Part shown: positions 49,389 through 59,161 of the stretch, piece by piece | Numbering within the stretch: the first letter of the stretch is position 1 | How the letters are laid out: each line of letters opens with the position of its first letter | Assembly: GCF_026339935.1 (NCBI RefSeq) | Contig: NZ_JAPEPX010000001.1 | Location: 1,904,501 to 1,968,500 of the forward strand | Length of the DNA: 64,000 nt | Source: Streptomyces sp. NBC_01551 | GTDB lineage: Bacteria; Actinomycetota; Actinomycetes; Streptomycetales; Streptomycetaceae | Direction of reading: 5' to 3' | The notes under the pieces: model-generated | Databases searched by the model: none | What the model was told of the DNA's origin: nothing | Seen by the model: only the letters and a program-made list of their open reading frames with translations | Position numbers and translations under genes: made by a program

Positions 49389-50330
49389 TCAGAAGCCGAG
49401 CTTGCGGAGCTGCTTGGGGTCGCGCTGCCAGTCCTTGGCGACCTTCACGTGCAGGTCGAGGAAGACCGGGGTGCCGAGCAGCGCCTCGATGTGCTTGCGC
49501 GACTTCATCCCGACCTCCTTCAGGCGGGCGCCCTTCGGGCCGATGATGATGCCCTTCTGGCTGGGCCGCTCGATGTAGACGTTCGCGTGGATGTCCAGCA
49601 GCGGGCGGTCCGCCGGGCGGTTCTCCCGGGGGATCATCTCCTCGACCACGACGGCGATGGAGTGCGGGAGTTCGTCCCGTACGCCCTCCAGCGCGGCCTC
49701 GCGGATCAGCTCCGCGACCATCACCATCTCGGGCTCGTCGGTGAGGTCGCCCTCCGGGTACAGCGGCGGGCTCTCCGGCAGCAGCGGCGCGATCAGGTCG
49801 GCCAGCAGCTGGACCTGGGTGTCGCCGACCGCCGAGACGGGGACGATCTCGGCCCACTCGAAGCCCAGCTCGGCGCCGAGCTGGTGGACGGCGAGGAGCT
49901 GCTCGGCCAGCTGCTTGGACTCGACCAGGTCGGTCTTGGTGATGATGGCGATCTTGGGGGTCTTCTTGATCCCCGCGAGCTCCTTGGCGATGAACTTGTC
50001 ACCGGGACCGAGCTTCTGGTCGGCCGGCAGGCAGAAGCCGATGACGTCGACCTCGGCCCAGGTGGTCCGGACGACGTCGTTCAGGCGCTCGCCGAGCAGC
50101 GTGCGCGGCTTGTGCAGACCCGGGGTGTCGACCAGCACGAGCTGGGCGTCGGGGCGGTGCACGATGCCGCGGACGGTGTGGCGGGTGGTCTGGGGCCGGT
50201 TGGAGGTGATCGCGACCTTGGTGCCCACGAGTGCGTTGGTCAGGGTCGACTTCCCCGCGTTGGGGCGGCCGACGAAGCATGCGAAGCCCGCGCGGTGCGG
50301 GGCGGTGGGCTCGGGGGAACGATCGCTCAT
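49389..50330 (-). CDS. era: GTPase Era
   Basis: 313-residue essential GTPase that assists 16S rRNA maturation and 30S assembly. G1 is GRPNAGKSTL, G3 is VDTPGLHKP, G4 is ITKTDL and G5 VSAVG. The C-terminal KH domain has the RNA motif IIIGPKGARLKEVGMKSRKH. Length and motifs are normal. ATG 50330 (MSDRSPEP) is preferred, with GGGGAG about ten bases upstream; ATG 50339 is an alternative. There is no in-frame stop between this gene and the upstream surface-protein gene: the frame is open to 51803. Confidence 0.95.
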   Translation of the reverse strand: MSDRSPEPTAPHRAGFACFVGRPNAGKSTLTNALVGTKVAITSNRPQTTRHTVRGIVHRPDAQLVLVDTPGLHKPRTLLGERLNDVVRTTWAEVDVIGFCLPADQKLGPGDKFIAKELAGIKKTPKIAIITKTDLVESKQLAEQLLAVHQLGAELGFEWAEIVPVSAVGDTQVQLLADLIAPLLPESPPLYPEGDLTDEPEMVMVAELIREAALEGVRDELPHSIAVVVEEMIPRENRPADRPLLDIHANVYIERPSQKGIIIGPKGARLKEVGMKSRKHIEALLGTPVFLDLHVKVAKDWQRDPKQLRKLGF

Positions 50331-51518
50331 ACGGGCCATTCTCCCCGATGCCGGTCCCAGCGCCGACCAGGCCACGGCCAGGAGGGCCAGAGCGGCGGAG
50401 AGCGCGGTCGCGAGATCCGGCCGCGCGGCGTGGCCGACGGAGGCCCGGGCGGCCGCTCCGACGCCGCTGACCTGCACCGTCACCTCGGCCCACTCGACGG
50501 CGGGCGGGCCGGTCCAGGGCGTGGAGAGCCGGACCCGCTGGCCGGGCAGCAGCTCGGCGGGCAGCCCGGAGAGCTCCCGGTCGAGCAGTCGGCGGCCGAA
50601 GGCGCCGGAGGCGGTGAGGGTGGCGCGGGGCCGGAGCGTGACGTTGCCGAGGTTGTGGAGCGTGTACGAGACCTCCGCGCCGGGGGCGCCGCCGGGGCGC
50701 GGGGTGACGCGGAGGCCCTGGACGGCGATCGCCGGGGCGGTGGGGCCGCTGACGCGGAGGTAGAGGCGGGCGGCGACGGCCTGCCGCACGCCGATGCCGG
50801 CGGGCGCCCCGCTCGGGGCGTCCTGCACGGCCATGGCCACGATGGCGCCGGGGTGGTCCCCCGGCTCCGCCCGGTCGGGGACGGTGAGCGTGAAGGCGAC
50901 GTCCGCCGAGCCGTGGGCCGGGACGGTGACCCGCTCCTGGGCGAGCTTCGCCCAGGCGGCGGTGGCGCGGCGCGGCTCGTCGGGGCCGCGGAGGGCGAAG
51001 CCGCCGTCGCGGGGCGTGTTGTACGCGTCGGCGGCGTAGAGCCGGAAGGTGCGGGGGCGGTCGGTGCGGTTGGTGACGGTGACGGTGTCGCCGACGCTCC
51101 CGCCGGGCTCGGCGGCGAGGTAGAAATACGGCCGCCGGGTCACGGCGTTGGCGGCGGGCCCCACACCCCACTCCCCGTTGTCAGCCGCCCCGGCCGCCAC
51201 GGCCGCCCCGGCCCCGCCGCCCAGCAACCCCCCGAGCCCGATCACGACGCCCACGACCCCGCGCAGCAGCACCCGACCGCGACGAGACGGGCCGGACCCT
51301 GCGCCCACGGCCCCGCCGCCACGCGGCGAAACCCGTCGCACGACCGCGGCCGCCGCCCCGCCGCGCAGCGGAACGCGTCGTGCGACCGCAGCCCCGCGGC
51401 CGCGCAGCCGGCGCCCGAGCCCGGTCTCCCACACGTGCCTCCCGCTCGGCCGCGTGGAGCGGAGGGGGTGCGGCGCGGTCGCGAGGGGGGTGGGCGCGGG
51501 GGCTACGGGGCGGGTCAC
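50331..51518 (-). CDS. DUF916-like (WxL peptidoglycan-binding type) exported protein, open into era
   Basis: About 396 codons without an in-frame stop before era. A 70-residue Arg-rich head precedes a hydrophobic export segment (LLRGVVGVVIGLGGLLGGGA). Two immunoglobulin-like beta domains follow (YLAAEPGGSVGDTVTVTNRT; AGIGVRQAVAARLYLRVSG; EVSYTLHNLGNVTLRPRAT) and then a C-terminal helix ALSAALALLAVAW. Domain order fits WxL-protein partners with DUF916. GTG 51518 overlaps the previous stop (GTGA). The expected end would be the TGA at 50329-50327, which overlaps era's ATG, but it is one frame off. A one-base frameshift near 50390 or a genuine read-through fusion are both possible. Confidence 0.68.
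51309..51392 (-). repeat. 42-bp tandem duplication in the DUF916-like gene
   Basis: Two adjacent diverged 42-bp units (51392-51351 and 51350-51309) encode AVARRVPLRGG and AVVRRVSPRGG in the Arg-rich head before the export segment. Confidence 0.6.
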
Positions 51519-52843
51519 GACAGGGTCAGGGTCAGGACCGCCTGGTAGGCGTCCGGTGGGGTGTACGGGGGCACCCGCAGGGTGACGGTCGCGTCGATCG
51601 TGAAGGTTCCGCCGACGGCACCGGCGTCCGGGGCCGACGCCAGGACCGCCCCCTCCGGCCCCACCACCCCCGCACTGCCCGCCACGCACCGGCTCGGGCT
51701 GCCCTCGGCGGCCACGCAGGACGGGGTCCAGCTCAAGGACGCGCCCGGGATCCGCACGCCGCCCGGACCGGTGAAGTCCGTGACCTTGCCGGTCAGGGTC
51801 CACCCCGCCGGCCCGCCCCGCGCGTCCTTGACCGTGACCGTCCCGATCCGACCCGGCGCCGCGCCCCCGTCCCCGTACGGCACCGCGCCCAGCACCACCG
51901 ACTCCCCCGCCTGGGACATCGACAGCGCCCCCGGCTCCACCACCGCCGTCACCTTCTGCGTCCCCGGCGGCGGCGGAACGGCGTCGATCACCGTGTACGC
52001 CGCCGGTCCCGAGCCCCGCCCCGCGGACCAGGCCGTGCCCTCGTACGCCACCACCGCGGTCGTCGCCTTGTCCGACACCGGCAGCTCGGCCTCGAAGGCC
52101 CCCCGGTCATCGGCCTTGGCCGCCACCCGGTCCGGGGTCTCGGCGGCGCCCGCCCGGCCGGCCACCGTCACCGATGCCCCGGGGGCGAACCCCGCGCCGG
52201 TGACCTTCACCCGCGCGCCCGGTTTCCCGTACGCCGCGGCGAGCGAGACGCCCCGCAGGTTGGCCGTGGGCAGCGGGCTCGCGGTGAGCCGCTCGGAGAC
52301 CGGGGTTCCGGTCGCCGTGCAGACGGTGTCCAGGTCCAGCGGGTGGCTGGTGTGCAGCGTGTAGCCGCCCGGGGCGAGCGTGACCTCCCCCGGCGCGGTG
52401 ACGGTGAAGGTGCCCGTCATGGTGACCCCGGGCAGCGCCGCACCCGCCTCGACGGGGTCGTTCCGCTTGGCGCCGACGACGGTGACCTCACCGCTCTGCG
52501 CGCCCCCGAGCAGGACCCGCCCGGTCGGGGTCAGCGCGTCGGCGGGCAGCTCGCCGCCGACCGGGTTCACGGCCGGGGTGGTGGCCACCTGGTACGTCAC
52601 GGTGACGGTGTCCCCGACGCGCGGCGCCGGGTCGCCGACGGTGATCCGGGCGGTCGTCGTCCCGTCGGCGGGCGGGAGTCCGGCCTCCTGCGGCGGCAGG
52701 CAGTGCGTCGGGAACTCCACCTGCCCCGGGGGCGTTTCGCCTTGGGCGACGGCCGGCGAACCCAGCCCTCCCCCGGCCGTGGCCGCGAGGACGGCCAGAC
52801 CGGCGGCCAACGCCCATCTCCTGCTGCCCGCCCCTGTCCGCAC
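51515..52843 (-). CDS. Secreted WxL-like surface protein
   Basis: 442-residue exported protein. Signal peptide RRWALAAGLAVLAATAGGGL is cleaved near AVAQGE. The mature part is beta-rich with a fold opening PRVGDTVTVTYQVATTP, an IPT-like segment GARVKVTGAGFAPGASVTV and a C-terminal domain ending FTIDATVTLRVPPYTPPDAY plus QAVLTLTLS, which resembles the end of WxL domains. Two Cys (PSCVAAEG and SRCVAGS) may form a disulfide. GTG 52843 is chosen over ATG 52885 because AGGGGG lies seven bases upstream and the signal begins there. It is translationally coupled to the DUF916-like gene, so the pair probably forms a cell-wall complex. Confidence 0.72.
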   Translation of the reverse strand: MRTGAGSRRWALAAGLAVLAATAGGGLGSPAVAQGETPPGQVEFPTHCLPPQEAGLPPADGTTTARITVGDPAPRVGDTVTVTYQVATTPAVNPVGGELPADALTPTGRVLLGGAQSGEVTVVGAKRNDPVEAGAALPGVTMTGTFTVTAPGEVTLAPGGYTLHTSHPLDLDTVCTATGTPVSERLTASPLPTANLRGVSLAAAYGKPGARVKVTGAGFAPGASVTVAGRAGAAETPDRVAAKADDRGAFEAELPVSDKATTAVVAYEGTAWSAGRGSGPAAYTVIDAVPPPPGTQKVTAVVEPGALSMSQAGESVVLGAVPYGDGGAAPGRIGTVTVKDARGGPAGWTLTGKVTDFTGPGGVRIPGASLSWTPSCVAAEGSPSRCVAGSAGVVGPEGAVLASAPDAGAVGGTFTIDATVTLRVPPYTPPDAYQAVLTLTLS

Positions 52844-52942
52844 TGTCCGCCCCCTGGGTTCCGTCCCGCCGCGACAGGGGGCCATTCACGAGCGGGCGGC
52901 GGGAGAAGTCAATGCACGGACCCGGCATCAACTGATGGCCCA

Positions 52943-53953
52943 TCAGGAGATGGCAGAGACGCCCGCACCCGCACCCGACGACGCCCGGAACGTCCGCCGG
53001 TACTCCGTCGGGCTCACCCCCAGCGCCGCCTGCAGGTGCTTGCGCAGCGACTGCGCCGTCCCGAACCCCGCCTGCCGCGCCACCTGTTCCATCGGCAGGT
53101 CGCTCTCCTCCAGCAGCGACCGGGCCCGCTCCACGCGCTGCCCGACGATCCACTCGCCGGGGCTGGCCCCGCACTCCTCGCGGAACCTGCGCGTGAAGGT
53201 CCGCACCGACATGGCCTCCTGCCGCGCCAGGTCGGCCAGCGCCAGCGGCTCGTGCAGCCGGTCCAGCACCCACGCGCGGGCCGCCGCCGTGCTGGCCTGC
53301 GCCGGTTCGGGCACCGGACGCTCGATGAACTGGGCCTGGCCGCCGGGCCGGTGGGGCGGTACGACGGTCCGCCGGGCCACCTCGTTGGCGACGGCCGCGC
53401 CGTGGTCGCGGCGCACGATGTGCAGGCACAGGTCGATGCCGGCGGCGACCCCCGCGGAGGTCAGCACGTCCCCGTCGTCGGTGTAGAGCACGCCCGCGTC
53501 CACCCGTACCGCCGGGAACATCCGCTGGAAGTGCTCGGCGGAGGCCCAGTGGGTCGTGGCCGGGCGGCCGTCCAGATACCCGGCGGCGGCCAGCACGTAT
53601 CCGCCCGTACAGATGGACACGAGCCGGGTGCCCGGGCGGATGTGCGCGAGGGCCGCCGCGAGTTCGTCGGTCAGCCTGCCCTCCTCGTGGACCGGGCCCA
53701 GCTCGTACGAGGCGGGCACCACCACCGTGTCGGCGGTGGCCAGCGCCTCGGGGCCGTGCTCGACGTGGATCGCGAAGTCGGCCTCCGTGGCGACCGGGCC
53801 GGGGGCGAGTCCGCAGGTGACGATCGTGTAGAGCGGCCGCCCGGCGGAATCCTTGGCGCGGCCGAAGATCCGGTGCGGGATGCCGAGCTCGAAGGGCAGC
53901 AGCCCGGTGAGGGCGAGTACGACCACGCGGTGTGTCTTCCGCTTCGACTCCAT
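52943..53953 (-). CDS. GlxA/AraC family transcriptional regulator
   Basis: 336-residue regulator. The N-terminal DJ-1/PfpI-like domain (VVVLALTGLLPFELGIPHRI) has a nucleophile-elbow Cys in LVSICTGGYVLAAAGYLDG. The C-terminal AraC domain has two helix-turn-helix units, LADLARQEAMSVRTFTRRF and MEQVARQAGFGTAQSLRKHL, plus the typical ALGVSPTEYRRTF end. ATG 53953 appears leaderless: TACGAT lies six bases upstream on the minus strand. Divergent from an MFS gene, which it probably controls in response to a small ligand. Confidence 0.92.
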   Translation of the reverse strand: MESKRKTHRVVVLALTGLLPFELGIPHRIFGRAKDSAGRPLYTIVTCGLAPGPVATEADFAIHVEHGPEALATADTVVVPASYELGPVHEEGRLTDELAAALAHIRPGTRLVSICTGGYVLAAAGYLDGRPATTHWASAEHFQRMFPAVRVDAGVLYTDDGDVLTSAGVAAGIDLCLHIVRRDHGAAVANEVARRTVVPPHRPGGQAQFIERPVPEPAQASTAAARAWVLDRLHEPLALADLARQEAMSVRTFTRRFREECGASPGEWIVGQRVERARSLLEESDLPMEQVARQAGFGTAQSLRKHLQAALGVSPTEYRRTFRASSGAGAGVSAIS

Positions 53954-53965
53954 GGCCCGATCGTA
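53954..53965 (-). promoter_or_regulatory. Probable leaderless promoter of the GlxA-type regulator
   Basis: TACGAT (53965-53960 on the minus strand) stands six bases before ATG 53953; no ribosome binding site. Confidence 0.45.
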
Positions 53966-54024
53966 CCGAAGCATGGCATTCAAGCCACTGTCCTGCGGAC
54001 GCCCCGGACCGGAAGCTGGTCCGC

Positions 54025-55347
54025 GTGACGCAGACAGAGTCCTCCACGACGCCCTCGACCGCCCCCCTCGCTCCCCCGGCGAAGCCCGGCCGCGTCCACC
54101 GCGCCTGGTTCGTCGCGGCCGTCGGCTTCGTGACGATCATCGGCGCGGCCGCCTTCGCCTCCCTGCCGGGACTGCTCATCGAACCGCTGCACAAGGAGTT
54201 CGACTGGTCGCGCGGCACGATCGGCTTCGCCGTCTCCGTGAACCTCGCGCTGTACGGGCTCACCGCGCCGTTCGCGGCCGCCCTGATGGACCGCTACGGC
54301 ATCCGCCGGGTCGTGGCACTGGCCCTGATGGTCATATCCGCCGGCACGGCCGCCACGGTCTGGATGACCGCGTCCTGGCAGCTGGTGCTGTTCTGGGGTG
54401 TGCTGGTGGGCCTGGGCAGCGGCTCGATGGCGCTCTCCTTCGCCGCGACGATCACCAACCGCTGGTTCACCGCCCGGCGGGGCCTGGTCACCGGCATCCT
54501 GACCGCCGCCGGCGCCTCCGGCCAGCTGATCTTCCTGCCGCTGCTGTCCTGGCTGGTGGAGCACCACGGCTGGCGCCCGGCGGCGGTGACGGTCTCGCTG
54601 GCGGCGCTGGCCGTGGTCCCGCTCGTGTGGCTGCTGCTGCGCGACCACCCCGCGGACGTGGGGCTCGCCCCGTACGGAGGCACGTACGCGGCGAAGCCGG
54701 CCCCCGTGGCGGGCGCGGCGCGGCGCACGGTGACGGTGCTGTTCAAGGCGGCCCGCACCGGCCCGTTCTGGCTGCTGGCGGGCACCTTCGCGATCTGCGG
54801 GGCCTCGACGAACGGGCTGGTCAAGACCCACTTCGTGCCGGCGGCGCACGACCACGGCATGCCGGTGACGGCGGCGGCCGGGCTGCTGGCGGTGATCGGA
54901 GTGTTCGACGTCGTCGGCACGGTGGCGTCGGGCTGGTTCACGGACCGCTTCGAGGCGCGGCGGCTGCTGGCCGTCTACTACGCGCTGCGCGGGGTCTCGC
55001 TGCTGTTCCTGCCGCTGCTGCTGGCTCCGACGGTGCATCCGCCGATGGTGTTCTTCATCGTGTTCTACGGGCTGGACTGGGTCGCGACCGTGCCGCCGAC
55101 GATCGCGCTGTGCCGCGAGCAGTACGGGGAGGACAGCGCGATCGTGTTCGGCTGGGTGCTGGCCTCGCACCAGGTCGGCGCGGCGCTGGTGGCCTTCCTG
55201 GGAGGCGTGGCGCGGGACGCGTTCGGCTCGTACGACGTCGTCTGGTACGCGTCGGGCGCCCTGTGCGCGATGGCCGCCCTGATGTCCATGGTCATCCGCC
55301 GCCGCCCGGCTGCCGCCGCCCCCGCCGTGGCCCCCGCCGCCGCGTAG
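54025..55347 (+). CDS. MFS transporter (monocarboxylate/oxalate-formate type)
   Basis: 440-residue 12-helix major facilitator. Helix 1 starts AWFVAAVGFVTIIGAAAFAS; the N-terminal lobe has GLLIEPLHKEFDWSRGTIGF, motif A-like ALMDRYGIRRVVALAL and NRWFTARRGLVTGILTAAGA. The central loop is short. These features match the OFA/MCT-like group (CynX and oxalate antiporter relatives), so an organic acid is a reasonable guess. GTG 54025 lacks an obvious ribosome binding site. Divergent from the GlxA-type gene. Confidence 0.88.
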   Translation: MTQTESSTTPSTAPLAPPAKPGRVHRAWFVAAVGFVTIIGAAAFASLPGLLIEPLHKEFDWSRGTIGFAVSVNLALYGLTAPFAAALMDRYGIRRVVALALMVISAGTAATVWMTASWQLVLFWGVLVGLGSGSMALSFAATITNRWFTARRGLVTGILTAAGASGQLIFLPLLSWLVEHHGWRPAAVTVSLAALAVVPLVWLLLRDHPADVGLAPYGGTYAAKPAPVAGAARRTVTVLFKAARTGPFWLLAGTFAICGASTNGLVKTHFVPAAHDHGMPVTAAAGLLAVIGVFDVVGTVASGWFTDRFEARRLLAVYYALRGVSLLFLPLLLAPTVHPPMVFFIVFYGLDWVATVPPTIALCREQYGEDSAIVFGWVLASHQVGAALVAFLGGVARDAFGSYDVVWYASGALCAMAALMSMVIRRRPAAAAPAVAPAAA

Positions 55348-55364
55348 GCACCCAGGCCCCGCAA

Positions 55365-55391
55365 CCCGGCGGGGGCCGAAGCCCCGCCGGG
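55365..55391. terminator. Bidirectional terminator
   Basis: CCCGGCGGGGGC and GCCCCGCCGGG pair across a CGAA tetraloop with one bulged G, between the MFS gene and the convergent deaminase-like gene. Confidence 0.7.
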
Positions 55392-55392
55392 G

Positions 55393-55749
55393 TCAGGCCC
55401 CGGCCGGGATGGTGGAGCGGAGGGTGCCGTCCGGGGCGGCGAGCAGGACCGGGGTGGTGGCGCCGCCGAGGTCGCGGACGGCCGCGCGGTCGGCGTCGGG
55501 CACCGACTCCGCCGCGCTGACCACGGCCGCGGCCTCAAGGGAGCGGGCTCCGCTGGCCACCGCCATCGCCACCGCGGTCTGGAGCGCGCTCAGCTTCAGG
55601 GAGTCCAGCTCCACCGTGCCGGCGACGTACGTGCGGCCCGTCTCGTCCCGTACAGCCGCCCCTTCCGGCACCCCGTTGCGGGCCCGGGCGCTGCGCGCCA
55701 GCGTGATGATCTTGCTGTCCTCGGGGTCGAGCCCGGTGGTGTCGGTCAT
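55393..55749 (-). CDS. Degenerate cytidine deaminase-like protein
   Basis: 118-residue protein with the cytidine deaminase fold order (DSKIITLARSARARNGVPEG, then RTYVAGTVELDSLKLSALQT and AVAMAVASGARSLEAAAVV). The zinc site is missing: there is no HAE and no PCxxC, so it should not deaminate cytidine by the known mechanism. The C-terminus ends where the active protein would continue. It may have a structural or regulatory role next to era, as cdd genes often flank era in other bacteria. ATG 55749. It is 55 bp from the YjbR gene on the same strand. Confidence 0.75.
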   Translation of the reverse strand: MTDTTGLDPEDSKIITLARSARARNGVPEGAAVRDETGRTYVAGTVELDSLKLSALQTAVAMAVASGARSLEAAAVVSAAESVPDADRAAVRDLGGATTPVLLAAPDGTLRSTIPAGA

Positions 55750-55804
55750 GGCGAAAGCATAAGGAGCGGCTCCCGGCCCGGGCGCGACCACCCCGCCGCA
55801 GCGG

Positions 55805-56158
55805 TCAGGGCCGGTCCAGCCGCAGCCGCTGCGCCCTCGGCAGACCCGCGACCACCAGGTCGTACGAGTCCTCGACCAGCTCCCGCACCAGCGCGTCGGG
55901 GAGTTCGGACACCGTCACGGTGTTCCAGTGGCGCTTGTTCATGTGATAGCCCGGCTGGATCGCCGCGTGCTCCGCCCGCAGCCGTACCGCCAGCTCGGGC
56001 TCGCACTTGAGGTTGACCTTCAGCGGGTCCGCGTCCAGCGCCGACAGTGCGAACACCTTGCCCAGCACCTTGAACACCGAGGTCTCCGGCGTGAAGGGGA
56101 ACTCCTCCACCGCCGCGTTGAAGCCGAGGCACAGCGCCCGCAGCCGTTCCGGAGTCAT
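55805..56158 (-). CDS. MmcQ/YjbR family protein
   Basis: 117-residue protein with the YjbR DNA-binding-like fold. It starts [20 protein letters not shown]; the conserved part includes VFKVLGKVFALSALDADPLK, VNLKCEPELAVRLRAE, and GYHMNKRHWNTVTV with the family Asn-Lys-x-His-Trp. Function is unproven; the fold is cyclic-nucleotide-binding-like or DNA-binding-like. ATG overlaps the stop of the CBS-protein gene (ATGA), so it is coupled to the phoH-ybeY operon. Confidence 0.88.
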   Translation of the reverse strand: MTPERLRALCLGFNAAVEEFPFTPETSVFKVLGKVFALSALDADPLKVNLKCEPELAVRLRAEHAAIQPGYHMNKRHWNTVTVSELPDALVRELVEDSYDLVVAGLPRAQRLRLDRP

Positions 56159-57465
56159 TGCGCCGCCTCCTCGCCCTCGCCCGCAGCCGGAACCACCGGC
56201 TCCACGAGCACCGTCACGATCTTGTTCCGGCGTCCGGCCGGGGACTCGGCCGTCAGCCTCAGCGGCCGCCCGTCCGGGAGCTCCACGACCGCCGAGGCGC
56301 CCGCGATCGGCACCCGCCCCAGCGCCTTGGCCAGCAGGCCGCCGACCGTCTCCACGTCCTCGTCGTCGTAGTCCTCGACCTTGAACAGCTCGCCGAGGTC
56401 GGTGATGTCGAGGCGCGCCGTCACCCGGTAGCGGTCCTCCCCGAGGTCCTCGACGGGGGCGAGCTCGCGGTCGTACTCGTCGGTGATCTCGCCGACGATC
56501 TCCTCCAGGATGTCCTCGATGGTGACGATGCCCGCCGTGCCCCCGTACTCGTCGATGACGACGGCCACGTGGTTGCGCACCTGCTGCATCTCGCGCAGCA
56601 GGTCGCCCGCGTTCTTGGTGTCCGGCACGAACACCGCCGGCCGCATCGCCGTGGAGACCAGGTCCGACTCGGCGTCCCGGTTGATGTGGGTCTTGCGAAC
56701 CAGGTCCTTCAGGTACACGATCCCGACGATGTCGTCCTCGTTCTCCCCGGTCACCGGTATGCGCGAGAACCCGGAGCGCAGTGCGAGCGTGGTCGCCTGA
56801 CGGATCGTCTTGTACCGCTCGATGCAGATCAGGTCCGTGCGCGGCACCATCACCTCGCGCACGAGCGTGTCGCCGAGCTCGAAGACCTGGTGCACCATCC
56901 GGCGCTCGTCGTCCTCGATCAGCGATTCCCTCTCCGCCAGGTCCACCATCGCGCGCAGCTCCGCCTCGGAGGCGAACGGCCCCTTGCGGAAGCCCTTTCC
57001 GGGCGTGAGCGCGTTGCCGACGAGGATCAGCAGCTGCGGGATCGGCCCCATCACCCGGGCGAGGGGGACCAGGACGTACGCGGCCGCCGTCGCCGTGTTC
57101 AGCGGGTGCTGGCGGCCGATGGTGCGCGGGGACACGCCGACGGCGACGAAGGAGACGAGCACCATCACGCCGATCGCCACGAACAGCGCGGTCCAGTTCT
57201 CGCCGAACTCGTCGAGGCAGACGTACGTGACGAGCACGCCCGCCGCCATCTCGCAGGTGACCCGGACCAGCAGGGCCACGTTCACGTAGCGGGTGGGGTC
57301 GGCGGCGACCTGCGCCAGCTTCGCGCTGCCGCGCCGCCCCTCCCGTACGGCCTGCTCCGCGCGGAAGCTGGAGACCCGGGCGATCCCGGACTCGGCGCAC
57401 GCCGCGAACCAGGCGACCACGACCAGCAGGACCGCCCCGGTGATCAGCTGCGGGGCGCCGGTCAC
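56155..57465 (-). CDS. CNNM/CorC-type membrane protein with CBS domains
   Basis: 436-residue hemolysin-family protein. Transmembrane CNNM domain (residues 1-185) with about four helices starts [21 protein letters not shown] cytoplasmic CBS pair at about 205-325 has [19 protein letters not shown] and [20 protein letters not shown]. The C-terminal CorC_HlyC domain begins near 350 ([19 protein letters not shown]). The family has roles in magnesium or cobalt homeostasis; the hemolysin name is historical. GTG 57465 overlaps the ybeY stop (GTGA). Confidence 0.92.
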
Positions 57466-57959
57466 GAGACGGTCGGGGCCGGGGACGGGCCGGTGATGCC
57501 GCGTTCGCCGCGCCAGCCGTCGACGATGGCCGCCTGGAGGCCGAACATCTCGGCCTTCTCGTCCGGCTCCTCGTGGTCGTAGCCGAGCAGGTGCAGCACC
57601 CCGTGGACGGTCAGGAGCTGGAGCTCCTCGTCCATGGAGTGCTGCGTCGGGGCGTCCTCGCCCTGCTTCTTGGCCACCTCGGGGCAGAGCACGATGTCGC
57701 CGAGGAGCCCCTGCGGGGGCTCCTCGTCGTCCTTCGCCGGCGGACGGAGTTCGTCCATCGGGAACGACATGACGTCGGTGGGTCCGGGCAGGTCCATCCA
57801 CTGGATGTGGAGCTGCTCCATCGCCCCCTCGTCCACGACGATGACGGAGAGCTCGGAGAGCGGGTGGATCCGCATCCGGGTGAGCGCGTAGCGGGCGATG
57901 TCGAGGATCGCCTGCTCGTCGACCTCGATCCCGGACTCGTTGTTGACGTCGATCGACAT
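57462..57959 (-). CDS. ybeY: Endoribonuclease YbeY
   Basis: 165-residue single-strand-specific RNase that matures 16S rRNA 3' ends and takes part in ribosome quality control. The diagnostic zinc motif is [16 protein letters not shown] (H3xH5xH). [12 protein letters not shown] and [15 protein letters not shown] are the other landmarks. It starts 13 bp after phoH stop; ATG 57959. Confidence 0.96.
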
Positions 57960-57972
57960 GGTGCGCTGAGTT

Positions 57973-59016
57973 CTACTTCCGCTGGTAACCGTTCGGGGCC
58001 TGCTGGCTGCCGTCGTACTTCTCGTACGCGTCGACGATACGGCCGACCAGCTTGTGCCGGACGACATCCTCGGACGTGAGCCGCGAGAAGTGGATGTCGG
58101 GCACGCCTTCGAGGATGTCCTGAACCTGCCGCAGGCCGCTCTTGGCCCCGCCCGGGAGGTCGACCTGCGTCACGTCACCGGTGACGACGATCTTGGAGTC
58201 GAAGCCGAGGCGGGTCAGGAACATCTTCATCTGCTCGGTGGTGGTGTTCTGCGCCTCGTCGAGGACGACGAACGCCTCGTTGAGCGTGCGCCCGCGCATG
58301 TACGCCAGCGGGGCCACCTCGATGGTCCCGGCCGCCATGAGCCGCGGGATCGAATCCGGGTCGATCATGTCGTGCAGCGCGTCGTAGAGCGGACGCAGAT
58401 ACGGGTCGATCTTGTCGAAGAGCGTGCCCGGCAGGAAGCCGAGCCGCTCGCCGGCCTCGACGGCGGGCCGGGTCAGGATGATCCGGCTGACCTGCTTGGA
58501 CTGCAGGGCCTGGACCGCCTTGGCCATGGCGAGGTAGGTCTTGCCGGTACCGGCGGGGCCGATGCCGAAGACGATCGTGTTCTTGTCGATCGCGTCGACG
58601 TACCGCTTCTGGTTGAGGGTCTTGGGACGGATGGTGCGGCCGCGGCTGGAGAGGATGTTCTGGGTGAGCACCTCCGCGGGCGTCTCCTCCGGCCCCTCGC
58701 CCTTGCCGTTGCCGCTCGCCTTGAGCATGGCGATCGAGCGTTCCACTGCGTCCTCCGTCATCGGCTGCCCGGTGCGGAGCACCAGCATCATCTCGTCGAA
58801 CAGGCGCTGGATCAGGGCGACTTCGACCGCCTCGCCGATCGCGCTGACCTGATTGCCCCGAACATGGATGTCGGCCTTCGGGAAAGCCTTCTCGATCACG
58901 CGCAACAGGGCGTCGCCGGAACCGAGCACGGTCACCATCGGATGGGCGGCCGGAACGGTGAAGTGGGCTCGCGCCTGCCCGGGCGCCGGGGTGTGGGCTG
59001 TCGGTGTCTGAGTCAT
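57973..59016 (-). CDS. phoH: PhoH family ATPase
   Basis: 347-residue protein. An N-terminal KH-like segment (residues 20-90) precedes an ATPase domain with Walker [21 protein letters not shown] at about residue 150. [16 protein letters not shown] follows, then Walker [22 protein letters not shown], and [13 protein letters not shown]. PhoH/PhoL proteins are linked to RNA metabolism and usually pair with YbeY, as here. ATG 59016 is chosen because it opens the family N-terminus; an in-frame ATG at 59040 has GGGAGG too close. First gene of the phoH-ybeY operon. Confidence 0.94.
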
Positions 59017-59161
59017 GGGCCGGCACTGTGGCCTGCGCATACCTCCCGCTGAGGGGCCGCGCCGATCGACGACCTCCGGAATACCAAGGGTACGACTTGG
59101 CCGCCGCTTCCCCGAGGCCTTTTCCGCGCCGCCCGGCGGGGCCTGAAACCGACGACAGGGC

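Follow-up and report, generated by a model that had tools for sequence, protein, structure and literature searches.

Era is encoded in Streptomyces sp. NBC_01551 in one reading frame with a WxLIP-like surface protein, the frame running without a stop codon through the upstream domain and across a promoter-like element of era into the GTPase. Judged from its sequence, the locus should yield ordinary Era together with a membrane-anchored Era fusion, and with a probability of about 0.72 the arrangement represents a stop-loss fusion with dual output, i.e. free Era and a tethered WxLIP-Era chain. The fusion is probably tolerated and not needed, since the promoter element and Era persisted through repeated loss of, or damage to, WxLIP; a role of its own for the tethered Era is possible. 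The locus lies in a contiguous stretch of 64,000 nt (denoted as the window), taken from a genome of 7.05 Mb in 28 contigs, whose nearest named relative, judged by Era, is Streptomyces goshikiensis (98% identical).

The fused reading frame and its parts

The first-pass annotation, made from the letters of the window, had noticed that a stop codon is absent between the surface-protein gene and era, and this was borne out: both halves share a single frame on the minus strand (Table 1).

Table 1. Features of the fused locus; positions refer to the window.
Feature	Coordinates	Strand	Remarks
Fused ORF, WxLIP-like protein and Era	49389..51518	-	709 codons, GTG 51518 to TGA 49391-49389
Signal-peptide-like stretch	51164..51272	-	judged by eye
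DUF916 / WxLIP peptidoglycan-binding domain (PF06030)	50841..51140	-	residues 127-226 of 709
C-terminal helix LATALSAALALLAVAWSAL	50358..50414	-	mean hydropathy 2.01 over 19 residues
Promoter-like element of era, inside the fused frame	50331..50369	-	present before era in 80/80 distinct loci
era, predicted free Era GTPase from ATG 50330	49389..50330	-	313 aa; sole locus of the genome above the Era cut-off
WxL-like surface protein gene	51515..52885	-	PF13731 24.6 bits, just below the cut-off of 25

A long open frame is by itself weak evidence here, because the DNA is high in GC and the opposite strand holds a frame of 882 codons without any sign of being a gene. Profile matches were obtained on both sides of the junction. 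The upstream half scores 35.1 bits with WxLIP_PGBD (PF06030), above the cut-off of 27.3, and residues 408-709 (302 residues) score 353.1 bits with the GTPase Era model NF000908/TIGR00436 (curated cut-off 237), the KH_2 domain of the Era part reaching 55.2 bits (cut-off 22).

The GTG that opens the frame overlaps the TGA of the WxL gene (GTGA), and the listed ORF begins further upstream still, at GTG 51803. The true start codons of the fused proteins may be internal, since the stretch ahead of the signal-like segment (51275-51515), about 80 residues in the window, is short in the close homologue P0001 and long and repetitive in several relatives. GTG 51272 is a possible alternative start of this kind, and several relatives show short signal-like N-termini from the GTG overlapping the WxL stop (e.g. 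L043, L048, L055). A repeat search near the long N-terminus returned three families of imperfect direct repeats and nothing telling.

The open junction in other genomes

Among 61 genomes of the same genus (own included), the same stop-free junction occurs in five relatives at 82-86% identity (G038, G012, G042, G039, G054), whose matches extend along most of the protein, and a sixth genome (G046) matches it in part only. An enlarged scan of 392 same-genus genomes, placed in Streptomyces by way of the named loci they include, returned 18 with a match across the junction without a stop, again including the source genome; one of these shows a frameshift near the N-terminus (G054) and another has lost the N-terminus of WxLIP through an in-frame deletion (G167). 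Named carriers among the matches listed are S. goshikiensis, S. katrae, S. xanthophaeus, S. yangpuensis, S. virginiae, S. avidinii, S. cirratus, S. lavendulae, and S. bambusae, the S. lavendulae carrier being a complete chromosome. In the plasmid records searched, no single place covers 80% of the query.

When about 5.8 billion proteins were searched, the best 120 of 389 matches included 42 clusters that are 65-88% identical to the junction query and align with 99-100% of it. All but one of them (41/42) are 602-653 aa long; the six long ones that were read are all fused. Database names of the long proteins are GTPase Era or GTP-binding protein Era for several and hypothetical protein for others. 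A 43rd cluster (P0045; 487 aa, 40% identity) belongs to another lineage and resembles a disrupted WxLIP whose frame continues into Era, the C-terminal part of WxLIP seemingly leaving its normal frame near the end; judging by this sequence, it may represent a second, independent route to fusion.

Conservation of the junction in relatives shows the fused frame to be real. The first-pass annotation had held, as its main alternative, that a single-base frameshift near 50390, arising in sequencing or assembly, hides the true stop of WxLIP, the attraction of this idea being a TGA one frame off that overlaps the era ATG. The identical frame in 35 other distinct loci refutes it, these including independently sequenced named species and the complete S. 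lavendulae chromosome, so that an error in this one assembly is excluded. The TGA itself (50329-50327, ATGA) does exist out of frame as described; it ends WxLIP in 0 of 20 distinct unfused loci, and the expectation that it is the lost stop falls with this. Comparison of the C-terminus of the upstream gene in relatives, which had been proposed as a check, gave the same open frame in the fused loci and stops lying elsewhere in the unfused ones.

In these unfused relatives (21 rows representing 20 distinct loci, L057 being the same as L079), the end of the WxLIP frame is preceded by a hydrophobic stretch with a basic tail behind it. The stops lie 66 to 2127 nt ahead of the Era core, i.e. within or upstream of the era promoter. 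The 392-genome scan lists 12 genomes in which an unfused WxLIP is already in frame with Era and split from it by one TGA; in the three such loci that were read (L015, L020, and L057), this TGA falls within the -35 portion of the era promoter, at a distance of 66 nt from the Era core. The fused state is thus close to a common arrangement.

WxLIP-like identity, putative membrane helix, and predicted topology

WxLIP proteins are described as DUF916-DUF3324-TMH, ending in a C-terminal transmembrane helix (PMC10599100). The upstream half of the fused protein resembles them in its adjoining WxL-like gene, its DUF916 domain, and its hydrophobic C-terminal segment, but ordinary WxLIPs stop after the helix, whereas here Era follows and a DUF3324 match is missing. 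No Pfam model of the second domain (DUF3324/HBD) matched the window protein even at E values up to 10, for which reason the protein is named WxLIP-like; the position of DUF3324 is taken by a sub-threshold DUF7507 match, with E values of 0.083 for the window protein and 0.0073 for L046. A comparison of the WxLIP part with PDB sequences gave a best E value of only 0.057. PF06030 scores of the basal fused proteins L104 (26.2) and L101 (26.6) lie just below the cut-off. One WxL-like gene was seen beside the fused frame (Table 1); the rule for WxL clusters in PMC10599100 requires two. Two further WxLIP-like stretches of the same genome (G000:C1:2131655-2132512 and 2434211-2435050), 41-44% identical to the query, are not located beside era.

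A mean hydropathy of 1.6 over 19 residues serves as a threshold for membrane helices. The C-terminal segment is at or above this value in 13 of 16 fused proteins and weaker in three (1.58, 1.31, and 1.15); in the window protein the hydrophobic segment is followed by arginines. Its final residues, WSAL, are encoded within the era promoter element. Since WxLIP proteins end in a membrane helix, the part downstream of it would face the cytoplasm, and the fusion is not topologically absurd. The concern that joining Era to an exported domain would place the GTPase outside the cell therefore does not follow: the helix should keep the extension cytoplasmic, and export of Era was set aside on these topological grounds. 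By analogy with WxLIP proteins, a single chain would expose WxLIP outside the cell and hold Era in the cytoplasm. Upon transcription of the WxL / WxLIP pair, the only full-length WxLIP product would be a chain of signal peptide, WxLIP, helix, and Era, anchored in the membrane with WxLIP exposed outside and Era remaining in the cytoplasm.

A promoter-like element of era inside the frame and the probable supply of free Era

The element of the window comprises a -35-like TGGTCG (50369-50364) and a -10-like GAGAAT (50343-50338) with 7 nt to ATG 50330. A relaxed pattern, G[AT][CG]AAT followed after exactly 7 nt by an ATG ahead of the Era core, settled after a first set of loci had been inspected, occurs in 80/80 distinct loci; the -10-like box reads GAGAAT in 65 and GACAAT in 15 of them. 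In the 37 loci outside the fused clade, the spacer is variable, in contrast to the block around ATCrGGGASAATGG and to an element containing GT near -35. Promoter variants such as TCAGGGACAAT are found in L105-L112. In fused genomes, translation across the element yields the final part of the helix and the linker. In a genus-wide search, the exact 21-nt form TCGGGGASAAT-N7-ATG was present in 180 of 384 genomes and absent as such from 204, a count in which the matches were not each confirmed as lying before era and for which a reversed control pattern gave at least 4 matches in the table.

About 21% of the mRNAs of S. coelicolor are leaderless, and the -10 sequence of this species is TANNNT (PMC4895711). 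The era element resembles leaderless Streptomyces genes in its -10-like box 7 nt ahead of the ATG, but it sits inside a longer translatable frame and its GAGAAT deviates from TANNNT at the first base. GGGGAG, 10 nt ahead of the ATG, could be a ribosome-binding site; as the sole ribosome-binding signal it is disfavoured by the fixed 7-nt distance and by the 15 GACAAT variants, which break the purine run wanted for such a site. Both features fit a -10 box with transcription from the ATG better than a Shine-Dalgarno sequence. A gene counts as leaderless if its transcript begins no more than 9 nt from the start codon; for era, the placement of the -10-like box, which is what was assessed here, suggests a putative leaderless start at or next to ATG 50330.

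An internal start of Era at ATG 50330 or 50339 had been considered in the first-pass annotation. Initiation within the fused frame is indeed plausible, and ATG 50330 is the likelier of the two, because ATG 50339 sits inside the -10-like box. The idea that a further copy of era relieves this one was rejected, as each of the 19 fused genomes possesses a single locus above the Era cut-off (19/19); consequently, either free Era must arise here or the fusion must serve in its place. Free Era is, on the strength of the conserved element, very probably still made beside the fusion: the promoter within the fused frame would give rise to a transcript from at or next to ATG 50330, which, being leaderless, would deliver free Era for ribosome assembly.

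Proposed origin of the fusion and repeated loss of WxLIP

For the Era-core tree, 95 loci were inspected, of which 13 without era were dropped; 18 more were added, yielding 100 with a complete era and 80 distinct ones. All 36 fused loci fall within one clade of 43 loci (support 100/96). This clade is a non-random sample, in which loci fetched by likeness to the fused protein are mixed with loci sharing the promoter string, and it contains 31 loci with an intact fusion, 5 with a fused but damaged frame, 7 in which WxLIP was not found, and none with a separately stopped WxLIP. One of the 31 counted as intact (L099, the same as L054) misses the N-terminus of WxLIP through a deletion joining it to WxL. 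The absence of WxLIP from the seven was judged on the full 2.5 kb searched in five cases, on 1239 nt in L073, and on only 172 nt upstream in L069; outside the clade, the 16 loci without WxLIP that have short flanks were judged on 1557-1764 nt.

The two basal fused loci differ from the core in how the helix ends. L104 encodes a helix, a basic tail (RTRRR), and a linker, after which the promoter-coded stretch begins, and L101 a helix followed by RRY. Core members lack such a tail, the helix continuing directly into the promoter-encoded WSA.

Loci without WxLIP are scattered at several places of the clade. The WxL gene is kept and WxLIP gone or nearly so in L118, L119, and L121, and L120 holds a broken remnant. 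In L121 (S. roseus; the same as L071), WxLIP is deleted, but a GTG that shares bases with the WxL stop has kept the reading frame of Era, to which it would add a short N-terminal extension. In L114 and in L054 = L078 = L099 (Streptomyces sp. ISL-94, sp. H27-H5), deletions fuse WxL in frame to the remaining WxLIP and on into Era; the predicted products in ISL-94 and H27-H5 are WxL-helix-Era chains.

The fused state requires at least 6 changes on the Era tree. One gain of the fusion followed by several losses is the simplest reading of these sequences, though not a proven one. A WxL / WxLIP-like pair lies directly ahead of era in this Streptomyces lineage; according to this reading, the stop of the WxLIP-like gene would have been lost in an ancestor common to one clade, extending its frame across the era promoter into era. 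The basal members keep the helix of WxLIP itself before the promoter, while in the core the tail is absent and promoter sequence encodes the end of the helix.

Possible coding constraint and selection

The upstream half might be a decaying, unexpressed gene whose open frame is an accident without a product. Such decay would account for the broken or missing WxLIP of the clade members L014, L016, L116, and L118-L121, but it agrees poorly with the 31 loci that hold WxLIP stop-free in the Era frame and with the many WxLIP columns that are invariant across 16 loci. The dN/dS of the ectodomain (0.48-0.55) is moderate and also speaks against decay, although these ratios, like those of Era (0.05-0.09) and of the helix (0.66-0.85), are rough, the third positions being 95% GC. 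Taken together, decay without a product is regarded as quite improbable. The pair analysis, which comprised a count of lengths that are multiples of three and a part of the dN/dS estimates, counted 11 of 12 pairs (L091 was left out); length as a multiple of three was dropped as evidence, since the frame had been fixed beforehand.

A further observation concerns the promoter-spacer codon after WSA. It encodes Leu or Val in 34/34 core fused loci and Pro, Gly, or Arg in 7/7 clade loci in which WxLIP was not found; the two basal fused loci, both of which have their own helix upstream, encode Arg and Pro here. A sign test on the 4 independent pairs gave a median p of 0.25 for the 43 loci and of 0.125 without the two basal ones. 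The pattern is suggestive of a coding constraint on the promoter spacer for as long as this forms part of the helix, and it supports the helix, not a need for Era on the helix. As a sign of selection on the fusion itself, this codon was set aside as suggestive only, given the 4 independent pairs.

Instead of being tolerated, the fusion could be selected, with tethered Era kept beside free Era to couple the state of the envelope to ribosome assembly; for example, small-subunit assembly or GTP/(p)ppGpp sensing would be brought to the envelope, WxLIP acting as a wall sensor or anchor. Several features lean this way, i.e. the spread of the intact open loci across a diverse clade in which WxLIP nowhere has its own stop, the Leu/Val preference of the core loci, and the frame into Era that the damaged L054 = L099 and L114 keep across their WxL-WxLIP deletions. 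Streptococcal Era is reported to bind membranes, according to titles among the references of PMC10582724. The Leu/Val preference, however, demands a good helix only and comes from few independent pairs, the persistence of an open frame is less telling where few one-step routes lead to a post-helix stop outside the promoter, the helix region evolves at the dN/dS ratio given above, and at several places in the tree an intact Era accompanies a lost or broken WxLIP. Selection for the fusion is thus considered unlikely, and a tolerated stop-loss fusion with dual output remains the preferred reading. If the selected version were true, one stretch of DNA would be read both as the era promoter and as the membrane helix of another protein.

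Relation to known Era fusions

Era fusions are termed extremely rare, and DUF916-Era fusions in 'certain Streptomyces sp.' are already listed in the review GTPase Era at the heart of ribosome assembly (2023, PMC10582724), where they were taken from an InterPro query of June 2023 and judged currently difficult to interpret. The domain pair and the genus are the same as here. The passages of the review that name the pair are silent on how it arose, on a helix, a promoter, or a second product, and on its taxonomic extent; the words 'leaderless' and 'transmembrane' have zero occurrences in the main text. Hence the domain pair is already in print, while the stop-loss origin, the in-frame promoter, the promoter-made part of the helix, and the repeated losses are absent from those passages. 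The YbeY-Era and RNase III-Era proteins of the same review likewise carry an extra domain on Era, YbeY being N-terminal as in the present case, but these partners are ribosome-assembly or RNA enzymes, whereas the partner here is of an exported, wall-binding type with a membrane helix. Literature searches found nothing on Era GTPase, membrane, fusion protein, and Streptomyces together, and nothing on leaderless transcripts in S. lavendulae.

A stop loss over the promoter with free Era retained offers a testable account of DUF916-Era, in which the fusion need not carry an essential function because free Era is retained. The locus would also illustrate cleanly how the promoter of a housekeeping gene can at the same time encode part of a membrane helix, and an Era that is naturally anchored in the membrane would allow one to ask whether Era tolerates tethering.

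As to the wider neighbourhood, positions 52943-59040 contain frames which, from their translations, resemble phoH, ybeY, corC, and a deaminase gene. Between this run and era lie an MFS-like transporter frame on the plus strand, a DJ-1/PfpI-AraC regulator, and the WxL / WxLIP pair.
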